30,689 nt of DNA from a virus, in IMG/VR virus record IMGVR_UViG_3300035034_001796, positions 1-30,689 of that record; one strand, given 5' to 3'. The position numbers were made by a program, and so were the translations under genes. Positions within the stretch are counted from its first letter, which is position 1, and each line of letters opens with the position of its first letter. Under the pieces are notes generated by a model. The model was not told the DNA's origin, searched no databases, and saw only the letters and a list, made by a program, of their open reading frames with translations. Below, one piece after another: positions 12,365 to 16,942 of this stretch.

Positions 12365-12412
12365 TTTAATATTCCTCTTTATGTTTTGGTTATCAATCAA
12401 ATTGTCGGGTGG

Positions 12413-12434
12413 TTGATAACATGACACTTGCGGA
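12413..12434 (-). promoter_or_regulatory. Target site for the C4-like RNA in the rha leader
   Basis: On the minus strand this reads TCCGCAAGTGT, then CAT, then GTTATCAA. The two blocks are exact complements (11 and 8 bases) of ACACTTGCGGA and TTGATAAC in the upstream RNA, in the correct antiparallel order. The site is about 50 bases before the rha ATG and inside the upstream in-frame leader. A 17-codon leader ORF in another frame, with its own AGG-type site, also crosses it. Confidence 0.65.
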
Positions 12435-12529
12435 ATACACAAACATGCACTAAAGCCTTTCCTATTGCTAGGTATTGTATAGCTATAGTCCACCCAAACT
12501 CTTGAACAACAAAAGAAAGGATATATTTA

Positions 12530-12580
12530 ATGGAGTTATTTGAACTCCGCAAGTGTTATGGGTTATCAAGCCCAACACTT
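12530..12580 (-). ncRNA. C4-like antisense RNA upstream of rha
   Basis: On the minus strand the first hairpin pairs AAGTGT with ACACTT and TGGG with CCCA around the loop CTTGATAA. A second hairpin, GGAGTT-CAAAT-AACTCC, follows at once. This is the architecture of C4 antisense RNAs of P1/P7, which sit at the 5' end of antirepressor operons. The loop and the 3' side of hairpin I carry the sequences complementary to the rha leader at 12413-12434. A sigma70-like promoter places the transcript start at the base of hairpin I. In P1, C4 is cut from the same transcript and blocks leader translation and elongation; the same mechanism here is inferred. Confidence 0.66.
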
Positions 12581-12582
12581 AC

Positions 12583-12611
12583 AGAATAATAGAGAATTAT
12601 TTATTTGTCAA
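12583..12611 (-). promoter_or_regulatory. Leftward promoter for C4-like RNA and rha
   Basis: On the minus strand TTGACA (12606-12611) is separated by 17 bases from TATTCT (12583-12588). The -35 is a perfect consensus match. The predicted start, near 12577, coincides with the first hairpin of the C4-like RNA, which supports both calls. Confidence 0.65.
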
Positions 12612-13498: not shown

Positions 13499-13955
13499 TT
13501 CCTAAAATCTCGGGATTTTCGTAGATGTTGCTAGTAATCTCAATATTATTAATCTTAACAGTTCCTTCTTTTAAAAACTCCTCATTATCTATAGAATACC
13601 TCCCAACAAATGATCCATTTTCAAAACAAACTACACATTCAACTTCAACCCAATAAGTAACATTGGATGCGGTAGTCATTCCTTTTGGGACAAGTAGAAC
13701 CTCTTTTTTATAAATATCTCCCTCATATATTTCCTTACTCATAATATGTACTTGAGACTTATCAAAATAATCATCAAAGTTGTCTATGGTCTCAGTAAAA
13801 GTAGCAGGGTCTGTTTTAATTACCCCAAATAAAGATACAAACTTTTTCATCATATCTGAGGTTAAATTATATTCACCACTGTAGTACATTTCACTTTCTA
13901 TTCTAGGATCACCTCCTCCGTGTGACCAAGCTCTGAATTTAATTTCTCTTCTCAT
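13491..13955 (-). CDS. YopX-like protein carrying a duplicated DUF1071 tail
   Basis: The 154-residue product starts at ATG 13955 with AAGGAG upstream; a GTG at 13976 is less likely. The first residues (MRREIKFRAWS) and the end (KEIYEGDIYKKE ... SNIYENPEILG) are those of YopX-family phage proteins, of unknown function. The middle, about residues 27-73 (YNLTSDMMKKFVSLFGVIKTD ...), is not YopX but a near copy of the C-terminus of the DUF1071 protein encoded just upstream. The copy differs by two residues (T for I, S for F). The reading frame is intact, so this is a chimera and not a visible pseudogene. Confidence 0.8.
   Translation of the reverse strand: MRREIKFRAWSHGGGDPRIESEMYYSGEYNLTSDMMKKFVSLFGVIKTDPATFTETIDNFDDYFDKSQVHIMSKEIYEGDIYKKEVLLVPKGMTTASNVTYWVEVECVVCFENGSFVGRYSIDNEEFLKEGTVKINNIEITSNIYENPEILGNA
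13737..13875. repeat. 139-bp direct repeat, copy A (inside yopX-like gene)
   Basis: This segment matches 14183-14321 with three mismatches (at 13756, 13789 and 13857). The two copies are 446 bases apart in the same orientation. Copy A replaces what should be the middle of a YopX protein. Confidence 0.95.
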
Positions 13956-14172
13956 TTTTACTCTCCTTAACTTCACTAATAATAAACCTTATCAATATAT
14001 TTCGAAGGTCTCTCAAATTCCACCAAATGATAAATACGAAAAGAAATAATGCTTTTTGATAAATAGTCATTTCTTGAAAAGAAAAAACCTGTATAAGGAA
14101 TAAAATAAATAAAAATATAATTGATGCTTGCCAGTTACCACACTTATTCCATATTTTATGAATAATTTTCAT
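13939..14172 (-). CDS. Small membrane protein
   Basis: The 77-residue product, read from ATG 14172 (GTG 14184 is an alternative), has two hydrophobic helices (about residues 14-32 and 39-57) flanked by lysine- and arginine-rich ends, with a charged C-terminal tail (EVKESKNEKRN). No family is recognised. It overlaps the YopX-like start by 17 bases and lies exactly between the two copies of the 139-bp repeat. Confidence 0.62.
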   Translation of the reverse strand: MKIIHKIWNKCGNWQASIIFLFILFLIQVFSFQEMTIYQKALFLFVFIIWWNLRDLRNILIRFIISEVKESKNEKRN

Positions 14173-14176
14173 TGTT

Positions 14177-14827
14177 TTACTCACTCATAATATGTACTTG
14201 AAACTTATCAAAATAATCATCAAAGTTGTCTATGATCTCAGTAAAAGTAGCAGGGTCTGTTTTAATTACCCCAAATAAAGATACAAACTTTTTCATCATA
14301 TCGGAGGTTAAATTATATTCATCAAATTTTTCTTTTAAGTCTTTGACGGTATATTGCACTTGTTCTACATGATAAGCCTTTTGAGTATCAGATTGAATTT
14401 GAGTTTGTGGCTGTTTGGCATTGGTAAATATTTTAGGGGCTTCTTCAGTTGGCAAATCTTCACCTGCATATATGTATATCCCAAGACCGTGGCGAGCTAT
14501 AGCTTTTGTTAAAGCTCTTTGTATAGTCTTGTTAACATCAACACTTGTAACTGAATTAACTAATATTGATTTGTTTCTAGTATCCATGATAGGTAACATT
14601 TCTATATGCTCAATACTCTCAACAGTTACACCTACTTTAACCCAACAAGTCCTACCATCTGTAAAATAATTAATATCTTCTTTCTCATATATTTTGTAAG
14701 TAGATTTAGGATATATCTTCATTAAATTATCCCAAGCAAAAGACCAACTTAAGTACTTCAAACTACCTTTTGTTTTAATATGATCATTTACATTTATAGT
14801 ACTTAATTTTGCATAAACTTCACTCAT
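14177..14827 (-). CDS. DUF1071 single-strand annealing protein (Sak3-like)
   Basis: The 216-residue protein has the DUF1071 signature near the N-terminus (KYLSWSFAWDNLMKIYPKSTYKIYE, split here only for reading) and VNKTIQRALTKAIARHGLGIYIY at about 98-120, as in Rad52-like phage annealing proteins. These coat single-stranded DNA and anneal complementary strands during phage recombination. After residue 130 a low-complexity Gln/Thr linker leads to a small helical domain (about 160-212). That domain is the one copied into the YopX-like gene. It works logically with SSB and RusA from the rightward operon. Confidence 0.83.
   Translation of the reverse strand: MSEVYAKLSTINVNDHIKTKGSLKYLSWSFAWDNLMKIYPKSTYKIYEKEDINYFTDGRTCWVKVGVTVESIEHIEMLPIMDTRNKSILVNSVTSVDVNKTIQRALTKAIARHGLGIYIYAGEDLPTEEAPKIFTNAKQPQTQIQSDTQKAYHVEQVQYTVKDLKEKFDEYNLTSDMMKKFVSLFGVIKTDPATFTEIIDNFDDYFDKFQVHIMSE
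14183..14321. repeat. 139-bp direct repeat, copy B (3' end of annealing-protein gene)
   Basis: This copy encodes the last 45 residues of the DUF1071 protein and is the likely source of copy A at 13737-13875. The high identity (136 of 139) indicates a recent event or ongoing gene conversion. Confidence 0.95.
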
Positions 14828-14958: not shown

Positions 14959-15474
14959 TCACTTAATCATTAATCTTTTATCAGGTCGTACTAATCGAAC
15001 ACCATCTATTTCAATACCATCTTTCAAAGCTTTCTTTAGATCTGTTTTAGATGGCTCCACTTTTATCCTGCAATACTCTTGTGGGATATCAGCATCACCA
15101 TCAATCTCCACACTTTCAAGACCTGCTAAACAACTAAGCTTAATAGTTGTAAAGTCGAACTTCTCGCCTTTATCTACATTCTCTAGTATGTAGTTTTTCA
15201 TACGCTCTTTAGCATTCGTCTTAGTACGCTTTAAAGTTTGTAGTCGCTTGATTTCTTGACTAATAACATCTTCATCAAGTTCAAGGCTTTTAGTGTAGTA
15301 AACACAATTTTTTATCTTATCTTCACGAGATAATGAAAGGGCGTTTAAAGCCTTGTCGTATTCCTCTTGTGTGATAACTTCGCCAGTATTAGCATCAGCT
15401 ACATACTCCGCATCTAAACTAATCATATTGATTAATGCATTCTCAAATTCTTTGTTTAATAAATATAAATTCAT
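14959..15474 (-). CDS. Gp157 family protein
   Basis: The 171-residue protein has the Gp157 pattern: an N-terminal helix, AEYVADANTGEVITQEEYDKAL near residue 25, a long central coiled coil with ISQEIKRLQTLKRTKTNAKERMKNYI, and a C-terminal domain with CRIKVEPSKTDLKKALKDGIEIDGV. Gp157 proteins occur beside recombination genes in many phages; resistance or recombination roles have been suggested. Its stop overlaps the ribosome site of the next small gene. Confidence 0.86.
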   Translation of the reverse strand: MNLYLLNKEFENALINMISLDAEYVADANTGEVITQEEYDKALNALSLSREDKIKNCVYYTKSLELDEDVISQEIKRLQTLKRTKTNAKERMKNYILENVDKGEKFDFTTIKLSCLAGLESVEIDGDADIPQEYCRIKVEPSKTDLKKALKDGIEIDGVRLVRPDKRLMIK

Positions 15475-15477
15475 AAC

Positions 15478-15615
15478 TTATGACATCCTTTCTAATTTGA
15501 ACTTTTTAAATTTAGCTAAAAATTTAAACTTAAATTTTCTTTTATATATCACTGGTGTTGATATGTGTTCAAGAATCCAGTGATTGCGTACTTTATATAT
15601 TTTGTAACTGCTCAT
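15478..15615 (-). CDS. Small basic protein, 45 residues
   Basis: The gene begins at ATG 15615, preceded by a strong AGGAGG, and stops at TAA 15478-15480, three bases before the Gp157 ATG. The product is very rich in Lys and Phe (YKRKFKFKFLAKFKKFKLER) and probably binds nucleic acid or membrane. No family is recognised. The strong ribosome site and exact fit argue for a real gene. Confidence 0.66.
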   Translation of the reverse strand: MSSYKIYKVRNHWILEHISTPVIYKRKFKFKFLAKFKKFKLERMS

Positions 15616-15667
15616 TTTGTCCTCCTAGACTATTATTGATGTAATTATTTTAAGATTTTGTTTTAAT

Positions 15668-16138
15668 ATGCTTGTTGACATTAAGTTAATGGTTCCGATA
15701 CTTAGTAAAGTTGTAGAATATGTGTATGATTTCTTTAAATTTAAGAAAATGTATAACCTGTTGTTATCCACAAACGGTAAAGAAATGACTCTAAAAGATG
15801 GTGTTTATTACTTTAATTTGAAGTTTGAAAATAAAACTAAAGAAGAAATTAAGATTAAAGATATTTATGTTAAAAAAGGTAGCTTAAAAATAGGTAGAAA
15901 AATCTTAGTTAATCATTTTCCTGAAATTAAATACGATACGTTTAATGCTGAAAAGATAGATATAAAGCTAAATTCATTTCCACCCTTTGAAACAAGTGGT
16001 AATGAATGTATAGAATTATTAAGCTTCTTTGGTGCAAATTTCATTAAACTTTATGTTAAGTATCAATCTATCACTATAAAAAAAAGCATGATGAAGAGTG
16101 ATGTCAGAATCACATCCATTTATCTTAGTCTTGAGTGA
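15668..16138 (+). CDS. Hypothetical protein in reverse orientation within the leftward operon
   Basis: The 156-residue product is not recognised. The first 30 residues form an amphipathic or membrane-associated helix; the rest is beta-rich (VYYFNLKFENKTKEEIKIKDIYVKKG ...), like an Ig-like fold. It is the only rightward gene between 11269 and 16729. It has no clear ribosome site, and its last 120 bases overlap the end of a leftward gene. That arrangement is typical of an accessory gene (moron) with its own expression, for example an immunity or host-interaction factor, but function is unknown. Confidence 0.6.
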   Translation: MLVDIKLMVPILSKVVEYVYDFFKFKKMYNLLLSTNGKEMTLKDGVYYFNLKFENKTKEEIKIKDIYVKKGSLKIGRKILVNHFPEIKYDTFNAEKIDIKLNSFPPFETSGNECIELLSFFGANFIKLYVKYQSITIKKSMMKSDVRITSIYLSLE

Positions 16139-16336
16139 TGACTCATCCCCAAAATCTGTAACAATGGTTTTTACTTGCATAAGTTCTTTTATTTTATTAA
16201 TGTCTTGATAATTACTTTTTAGGATTTCATCTAAACACATTATGCGATCATAAATCATCTTATTCTCTGAATATGTCTGAAATGATACTATTACAAGCAT
16301 TACAAGTACTAATGATATTATTATTGTTAATAACAT
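16019..16336 (-). CDS. Small membrane-anchored protein, possibly with an altered C-terminus
   Basis: The 105-residue product has an N-terminal transmembrane helix (LLTIIISLVLVMLVIVSF), then a charged helical region to about residue 65. GAGAGGA lies seven bases before the ATG. The last 40 residues are antisense to the rightward gene at 15668-16138 and may be foreign sequence acquired when that gene was inserted. No family is recognised. Confidence in the N-terminal part is higher than in the tail. Confidence 0.55.
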   Translation of the reverse strand: MLLTIIISLVLVMLVIVSFQTYSENKMIYDRIMCLDEILKSNYQDINKIKELMQVKTIVTDFGDESSLKTKINGCDSDITLHHAFFYSDRLILNIKFNEICTKEA

Positions 16337-16338
16337 AA

Positions 16339-16443
16339 TTAAATCCTCTCTTTTTGTTTACTTTCTTTAATTTGCTCATCAAGATAATCTTTTACTTGAC
16401 CTGCAATCAATTGCATAAAATTTTGATACTGTGTATCTGTCAT
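16339..16443 (-). CDS. Small hypothetical protein, first gene of the leftward operon
   Basis: The 34-residue product starts at ATG 16443 with AAGGAG eight bases upstream and ends at TAA 16339-16341, two bases before the next ATG. It is a single amphipathic helix rich in Gln, Lys and Glu (QLIAGQVKDYLDEQIKESK). It is the first cistron after the structured leader. No family is recognised. Confidence 0.62.
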   Translation of the reverse strand: MTDTQYQNFMQLIAGQVKDYLDEQIKESKQKERI

Positions 16444-16469
16444 AACTATTCTCCTTGTTGTTTAACTAC

Positions 16470-16514
16470 ATTAGTTGATAGCTCGCACTGGGGAGTTACA
16501 AGCCATCAACTAAT
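16470..16514 (-). promoter_or_regulatory. Long RNA hairpin in the leftward operon leader
   Basis: ATTAGTTGAT (16470-16479) and ATCAACTAAT (16505-16514) are perfect inverted repeats of ten bases. On the minus strand the pairing continues inward through GGCTT/GAGCT (two wobble pairs) and ACT/AGT to a CCCC loop, giving a stem of about 20 pairs. No U run follows, so it is not an intrinsic terminator. The CUCC at the loop could pair with the GGAG of the first gene's ribosome site, which would make it a translational control element; that is inference. Confidence 0.6.
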
Positions 16515-16651
16515 ATAATTAGTCTGCTACTTCCACTTACCTATGCTGATACCCTCTATTACAGCTTTATGGTCTAGGTTTGTTTACCTTGCAGATTTGA
16601 ATATGTTTTTAAATATCTTCTTTGGTGGTCATCATTCGACCTTATGAAACT

Positions 16652-16669
16652 AGTATAAGCGCTTTTACT
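16652..16669. promoter_or_regulatory. Operator-like palindrome in the leftward promoter
   Basis: AGTATAAGCGCTTTTACT is an 18-bp palindrome with one mismatched pair. It covers the -10 and much of the spacer of the leftward promoter. Its half-site TTTACT recurs at 16690, 16723 and 16744 around the rightward promoter. It is a likely binding site for the Cro-like protein encoded at 16730. Confidence 0.62.
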
Positions 16670-16680
16670 TTTGTTGTCAA
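16652..16680 (-). promoter_or_regulatory. Leftward early promoter
   Basis: On the minus strand TTGACA (16675-16680) is followed after 17 bases by TATACT (16652-16657). This near-consensus promoter would start transcription near 16645, giving a leader of about 200 bases before the first leftward gene. Confidence 0.75.
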
Positions 16681-16689
16681 ACTATTATG

Positions 16690-16718
16690 TTTACTTTTTA
16701 TTGATTTATCTATATAAT
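16690..16718 (+). promoter_or_regulatory. Rightward early promoter
   Basis: TTTACT (16690-16695), a 17-base spacer and TATAAT (16713-16718) form a rightward promoter. The -35 coincides with one of the repeated TTTACT half-sites, so the regulator that binds them could control it. The predicted start near 16725 leaves almost no leader before ATG 16730. Confidence 0.6.
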
Positions 16719-16729
16719 TACTTTTACTA

Positions 16730-16942
16730 ATGACAAAAATAGTTTTACTTATGGAATTTAAGCCAGTATTTGAATACTACAGAAATGATAAGCAGAAAAT
16801 GATAGACACTTACAAGATAACGCCAGCTACTTTTTATAATTGGAAGAGATCTAACAAAATATCCTTAGGATATGAAAAAACTGTTCAGATACTAACAAAT
16901 GACAAGTTTATAGCTTCTGAAAAAGCTTTATTTGGGAGATAG
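16730..16942 (+). CDS. Cro-like transcriptional regulator
   Basis: The 70-residue protein (63 if ATG 16751 is used) has a helix-turn-helix in YKITPATFYNWKRSNKISLG (about 28-47), followed by the helix YEKTVQILTNDKF. That resembles Cro/C1-type small phage repressors. It is the first gene of the rightward early operon and sits on a divergent control region with repeated half-sites. There is no peptidase or dimerisation domain. With no CI gene visible, it could act as Cro or as the only repressor. The stop is one base before the initiator gene. Confidence 0.7.
   Translation: MTKIVLLMEFKPVFEYYRNDKQKMIDTYKITPATFYNWKRSNKISLGYEKTVQILTNDKFIASEKALFGR

Follow-up and report, generated by a model that had tools for sequence, protein, structure and literature searches.

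The leader of the rha gene in the window (the whole stretch of viral DNA analysed here, 30,689 nt, IMG/VR record IMGVR_UViG_3300035034_001796) contains several short blocks that are complementary to each other, and the question it raises is which of them belong to a regulatory RNA and which to its target. The preliminary description saw a C4-like antisense RNA, made from a perfect TTGACA promoter hexamer and consisting of two adjoining minus-strand hairpins, with its target blocks in the rha leader about 50 bases before the gene, and suggested that it may be a main lysogeny control. The sequence observations behind this proposal, including coordinates, spacers and hairpins, were reproduced to the base: TTGATAAC (12569-12562) is exactly complementary to GTTATCAA (12420-12413) and ACACTTGCGGA (12556-12546) to TCCGCAAGTGT (12434-12424), the spacers between the two complementary blocks are 5 and 3 nt, and 48 nt separate the end of the supposed target from the rha ATG (12364). 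Three features had been overlooked, namely a second copy of TTGATAAC at 12396-12389, about 25 nt ahead of the rha start codon, the motif GGAATA on the rha Shine-Dalgarno sequence (12375-12370), which is complementary to TATTCC in the P3 arm described below, and a three-way-junction fold that contains the supposed target blocks. A C4-type layout ahead of an antirepressor-type gene is indeed present, but the roles had been swapped, as follows from the annotation of phage P1 (NC_005856) and a check of its sequence; the hairpins at 12582-12532 correspond to the a1b1-like copy, the C4-like RNA is the next element (12499-12404), and the predicted target is the rha ribosome-binding site (RBS). The features are as follows.

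12606-12611, minus strand: -35 hexamer TTGACA of the promoter feeding the module
12583-12588, minus strand: -10 hexamer TATTCT (spacing 17; 10 of 12 matches over -35 and -10), ending 13 nt ahead of a1, a spacing that most relatives share
12586-12591, minus strand: alternative -10 hexamer TATTAT (spacing 14)
12532-12582, minus strand: two adjoining hairpins (12582-12549 and 12548-12532) with the a1b1-like copy, minimum free energy (MFE) -21.7 kcal/mol (z-score -4.5, reached by none of 200 shuffles)
12562-12569, minus strand: a1 block TTGATAAC, complementary to J3/1 and placed in the hairpin 1 loop
12546-12556, minus strand: b1 block ACACTTGCGGA, complement of the P3 arm (13 pairs including one G-U)
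12404-12499, minus strand: C4-like or sRNA-Xcc1-like RNA element, a three-way junction according to Rfam RF02221, model R1 and the MFE fold
12497-12490 with 12412-12405, minus strand: helix P1 of the junction
12480-12471, minus strand: core ATACAATACC of helix P2 of the junction
12448-12419, minus strand: P3 arm of the junction
12424-12437, minus strand: P3 recognition block TATTCCGCAAGTGT, which contains the first of the formerly supposed target blocks
12413-12420, minus strand: J3/1 recognition block GTTATCAA, the second of them, between P3 and P1'
12389-12396, minus strand: a2 block TTGATAAC, the J3/1 complement within the rha leader
12369-12378, minus strand: Shine-Dalgarno region AGAGGAATAT, including the b2 block GGAATA(T), which is complementary to TATTCC in P3
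11546-12364, minus strand: rha (272 aa), the predicted regulated gene (Pfam Phage_pRha, 6.7e-27; PHROG Rha-like and anti-repressor families)

The unconstrained MFE fold of the element 12499-12404 is the junction itself (-26.9 kcal/mol). A permissive scan of 341 bases with the Rfam model of sRNA-Xcc1 (RF02221) gave a full-length match at 12499-12396 with 28.2 bits and an E-value of 0.0053, a score below the curated cut-off of 53 for membership in that family; the family core, AUACAAUACC-loop-GGRAA in P2 within a closed helix P1, is present. Model R1, a covariance model made from 17 relatives with the window left out, had its sole match in the window at 12498-12403 (22.2 bits, E-value 7e-5, 30.7 kb searched). 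The scan with the Rfam C4 model (RF01695), which the preliminary description had proposed as a check, found no match in the window either at the gathering threshold or at E-values up to 10, the positive control, phage P1, scoring 68.8 bits; likewise, c4-2 (RF02944) had no match in the window at E-values up to 10, and neither isrK (RF01394) nor c4-a1b1 was matched there by its Rfam model. The architecture of C4 can nevertheless be traced, with a P1-P2-P3 three-way junction that carries recognition blocks in P3 and J3/1, and with complementary copies both upstream (a1b1) and near the RBS (a2b2), encoded on one transcript strand, the b2 match being short. The window element is a divergent member of the sRNA-Xcc1-type antirepressor leaders, with a P3 arm longer than usual among its relatives.

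Within the window, the two-block complementarity of the element to the 260 bases upstream was reached in none of 2000 dinucleotide shuffles, and the pairing with the RBS, which comprises 6-7 contiguous pairs at b2, in 17 of 2000. Computed for isolated strands, leaving out kinetics and proteins, the duplex energies are -19.7 kcal/mol for the element with the RBS and -40.4 kcal/mol for the element with a1b1. In the 149-nt leader lacking a1b1, the GGAATA of the Shine-Dalgarno sequence is predicted to be unpaired with a probability of 0.01-0.06, and the full-length transcript is predicted to fold into the element-a1b1 duplex. A purely activating pseudoknot was considered and dropped, since the P3 complement sits on the Shine-Dalgarno sequence. 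Activating pseudoknots of this type are exemplified by repZ of ColIb-P9.

These data point, with a probability of roughly 0.8, to a C4-type antisense module in which the junction RNA silences rha at its RBS and the a1b1 copy competes for the junction RNA. The layout, the fold, its covariation and the overlap with the RBS, on which this reading stands, are established at the level of sequence. A transcript from the promoter at 12611 would run through the a1b1 hairpins, the junction RNA and rha, and the junction RNA would probably be freed by processing, as is C4 of phage P1; neither a promoter immediately ahead of the junction element nor a terminator behind the hairpins was found in the window, so its release depends on putative processing. 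It would then bind the a2 block TTGATAAC via J3/1 and the b2 block GGAATA via P3, and this pairing would hide the rha Shine-Dalgarno sequence, keep Rha off and favour the prophage state. The a1b1 copy, predicted to bind the same two blocks more strongly, could titrate the junction RNA and free rha.

The same observations can be read as a purely cis-acting leader switch, in which the element folds onto its own RBS, a1b1 offers an alternative partner and a free small RNA plays no part. The MFE fold of the leader lacking a1b1 already pairs the RBS with the element, and the missing internal promoter and terminator would suit such a switch. Yet cloning of sRNA-Xcc1 yielded an 88-nt RNA whose ends were mapped (PMC2996969), and both P1 C4 and STnc1160, which lies downstream of IsrK, are processed RNAs; moreover, the cis and trans modes are mutually compatible, and we regard an exclusively cis-acting switch as unlikely.

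The polarity of the preliminary description, where the hairpin RNA starting from 12611 acts as antisense RNA on the leader, some 50 nt upstream of the start codon, to repress rha, appears distinctly improbable. The pairing between hairpins and leader is real and strong, as the -40.4 kcal/mol of the duplex indicates. In most relatives, too, a promoter directly precedes the hairpins: one with at least 9 of 12 matches stands ahead of a1 in 37 of 62, as compared to 5.1 expected, and most relatives have a sigma-70-like promoter whose end is some 12-13 nt from the upstream copy, a distance that the window fits. The leader blocks, however, make no contact with the RBS, whereas the hairpin sequence recurs at the RBS itself, so that a hairpin RNA would compete for the element and free the RBS. 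The annotation of phage P1 assigns the opposite roles, and IsrK, whose Rfam match overlaps that of the c4-a1b1 family, activates its antirepressor (PMC4825925).

Relatives of the element were sought by scanning viral contigs for the core pattern ATACAATACC-loop-GGRAA; the scan listed many matches, many of them chance ones, and only loci with a closed helix P1 or a model match were used as relatives. Among the matches listed, the core of the closed-stem loci lies mostly 80-115 nt ahead of a gene of the Ant, ORF6N, Bro-N, KilA-N or Rha type; some of these genes are annotated, most of the unannotated ones were assigned by eye from sequence, and the gene behind the units is usually of the antirepressor type. 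Most of the relatives scanned with RF02221 score above its cut-off (53.8-80.3 bits), and the window differs from most of them in its 28.2 bits and longer P3. A search that detected the P1 control covered 28 records (viral, phage and plasmid) containing sRNA-Xcc1-type units and found no Rfam C4 in 26 of them. Over 67 distinct rows, 88.3% of the cells in the junction helices are paired, and double-sided changes occupy 302 cells, versus 85 in shuffles, while slid versions were at most 50% paired; since the rows had been fitted to the model, the slid and shuffled controls outweigh the raw percentage. Taken over the aligned family, the three-way junction is supported by covariation.

The recognition blocks vary in the same concerted manner. 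In the relatives, J3/1 and then the P3 arm, in that order, are complementary to two sites, one upstream and one close to the RBS; the blocks of one relative (L011) are CCTATGACGG and TCGTCATAGG, and two leaders that are otherwise alike carry CTTTAGG with CCTAAAG (L112) versus CTATTGG with CCAATAG (L117). In a permutation test, each element was scored on its own flanks and on the flanks of other elements, with 5000 permutations. For 70 distinct elements, the own blocks surpassed the swapped ones with Z-scores of 10.7 (RBS) and 16.5 (upstream), and for 38 clusters (80% identity) that did not include the window, with Z-scores of 6.4 and 10.5, respectively; none of the 5000 permutations reached the observed value in any of these comparisons. 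The window lies at quantile 1.00 both at the RBS and upstream, where its score of 52.5 is the top of the 70, meaning that its own J3/1 and P3 fit its own RBS and upstream copy better than those of other loci, one of the two properties by which membership of the model R1 family was judged. The end of the P3 complement is located, at the median, 8 nt before the start codon of the relatives, usually abutting AGGAG. The preliminary description had called for a search for compensatory changes in relatives, and the complementary blocks do vary together rather than independently; of the two results that it had jointly named as refuting, the absence of a C4 match and the independent divergence of the blocks, only the first was obtained. 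This covariation was measured in other phages, the sole other copy found of the window locus (L001) being identical.

Promoter-adjoining repeats can be operators, and DNA-level repeats, such as phage repressor operators, might mimic antisense complementarity; this is very improbable here, as one copy of each block is a reverse complement lying within a covarying three-way junction, the order of J3/1 complement followed by P3 complement scores above the reversed order, and the sequence varies between loci while the complementarity is kept. Chance matches in AT-rich DNA are a negligible explanation even for a block as short and AT-rich as TTGATAAC and an RBS pairing that alone arises in 17 of 2000 shuffles, given the 0 of 2000 shuffles for the upstream pairing, the model R1 match (E-value 7e-5) at precisely the place of the element, the repetition of the layout in dozens of unrelated phages and the covariation tests, which rule it out.

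Searches for DNA homologs of the window leader in phages and plasmids returned chance-level matches only, and the relatives of the Rha protein comprise one identical copy and distant ones. The element was not found at the Rha loci of cdtI, 118970_sal3, LP.2 and Rao1 and therefore does not invariably accompany rha. In a distant rha relative (L003, 2590-2680), the leader contains, immediately ahead of the gene, another closed stem, GGAACGGAC...GTCCGTTCC, which is unmatched by the model and is possibly another type of leader RNA. A further viral contig (L048) contains three CRISPR repeat matches (CRISPR-DR4) at 2202-2349, about 1 kb from an sRNA-Xcc1-type unit.

One 56.8-kb record (G001; locus L030, with loci L127-L132) contains 11 sRNA-Xcc1-type units, each ahead of its own gene. 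The best pairing of each unit was with its own upstream copy in 11 of 11 cases and with its own RBS in 10 of 11. All 11 block pairs are distinct and single blocks recur, for example GTTTCTTA with CTGTGTA, CTATGCA or CTATCGA; compared at the level of the blocks, this pattern looks like selection for orthogonality via two-part addresses. Multi-copy C4-like RNAs are already known in Acinetobacter (PMC5320573), so the multiplicity is not new; what is added is that each copy pairs with the gene it precedes.

Elsewhere in the window, a 156-nt direct repeat with 94% identity (13723-13878 and 14169-14324) represents the 3' end of the gene encoding the Sak single-strand annealing protein copied into the neighbouring YopX-like gene, so that the two proteins have about 47 residues in common (EYNLTSDMMKKFVSLFG...); it looks like a recombination scar. 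No gene for a CI-type repressor was recognised in the record of the window, including the vicinity of the early region 15474-16942; a small plus-strand ORF there (16730-16942) appears Cro-like by eye and has no Pfam or PHROG match.

Until now, sRNA-Xcc1 has been known only as an orphan bacterial small RNA, and a function is now proposed for a family that is annotated widely and has been taken for a trans-acting RNA related to virulence. Its annotation as virulence-linked in prophage-bearing genomes (Xylella, Haemophilus, E. coli, a Vibrio phage) is probably misleading. C4-type control would be widened from P1-like phages to many temperate phages, including Stx-converting and Rac-like phages of E. 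coli and phages of Vibrio, Mannheimia, Bordetella, Moraxella and Stenotrophomonas, and to Rha. A broader proposal, to which we would give somewhat less than even odds, is that all sRNA-Xcc1 RNAs constitute a second C4-type class, made up of addressable translational repressors on temperate phages and plasmids, whose two-part recognition codes would allow up to 11 paralogous antirepressor switches to operate alongside one another in a single genome, with a1b1 as a trans inducer. If so, standalone or integron copies, such as those in the symE cassettes of Xanthomonas, would be co-opted or decoy versions, which could set off or silence resident prophage switches sharing their address. The multi-copy two-part address code would represent a naturally occurring collection of orthogonal RNA regulators, and it predicts between which prophages cross-regulation can occur.

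In Xanthomonas, sRNA-Xcc1 is a real 88-nt RNA (PMC2996969), located upstream of symE (PMC12444791); the title of Chen 2011 (cited in PMC12444791) presents it as a trans-acting, integron-borne RNA. No element was found at the symE genes of five plasmids, and the link to symE in Xanthomonas is thus one drawn from the literature. In EDL933, sRNA-Xcc1 is listed as strongly transcribed and poorly translated (PMC5331693), and a stretch of about 400 nt in Xylella De Donno harbours C4, isrK and sRNA-Xcc1 together (PMC12189769). No paper treating sRNA-Xcc1 and an antirepressor together was found in the literature searched, the coverage of which leaves out most subscription journals. The window shares with sRNA-Xcc1 (RF02221) the common fold and core.

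Among the known systems, the CI RNA of satellite phage P4 (seqA-CI-seqC) is a processed antisense RNA with a complementary copy on either side (described in PMC4825925); the upstream and downstream copies resemble those of the window, but the P4 RNA causes premature transcription termination, instead of covering an antirepressor RBS. The IsrK-orf45/STnc1160-AnrP system of Salmonella Gifsy-1 is similar in that upstream RNA blocks complement a downstream processed RNA controlling an antirepressor, and there IsrK pairs in trans with the downstream RNA and raises anrP translation about 140-fold (PMC4825925). Unlike the window, Gifsy-1 has no RF02221 match, and it has features of its own, the upstream orf45 being translationally coupled to anrP and isrK having its own terminator. 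In one relative (L006), an isrK match overlaps that of c4-a1b1, and C4 follows; in the region 1900-600 (minus strand), isrK/c4-a1b1 and a genuine Rfam C4 precede an entire sRNA-Xcc1-type unit that has a TTGACA promoter to itself, which makes two stacked antisense systems in the leader of one ORF6N gene. The Group 1 C4-like small RNAs of Acinetobacter baumannii are present in many copies per genome, have varied recognition loops and are processed from longer transcripts (PMC5320573); in contrast to the window element, they belong to the Rfam C4 family, and their targets are not known.

The closest counterpart in layout is C4 of phages P1 and P7 (RF01695; targets c4-a1b1, RF03163), with the same order of promoter, a1b1, antisense RNA, a2b2/RBS and gene, the same helices P1, P2 and looped P3 with J3/1, and the same assignment of J3/1 to the first block and of P3 to the RBS block. 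RNase P processes C4 antisense RNA to a short RNA. In phage P1, the processed RNA occludes an RBS (described in PMC5320573). The GenBank annotation of P1 (NC_005856) gives the order a1, b1, c4, a2, b2, icd; in the sequence, J3/1 of C4 contains CTGTCAA, the partner of a1 and a2 (both TTGACAG), and the P3 loop contains TCACTAAC, the partner of b2 (GTTAGTGA). Because these partner blocks lie in C4, it is the three-way junction that acts as the antisense RNA, and its targets are the copies on either side. The window follows this order with a1 TTGATAAC, b1 ACACTTGCGGA, the junction RNA, a2 TTGATAAC, b2 GGAATA and rha; it differs from C4 in its other conserved core, ATACAATACC..GGAAA in P2, and from P1 in that rha is predicted to be controlled directly, in place of an icd-ant operon. 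The type of control is already known from P1/P7 C4, the P4 CI RNA and IsrK; the RNA class that carries it here is a different Rfam family.
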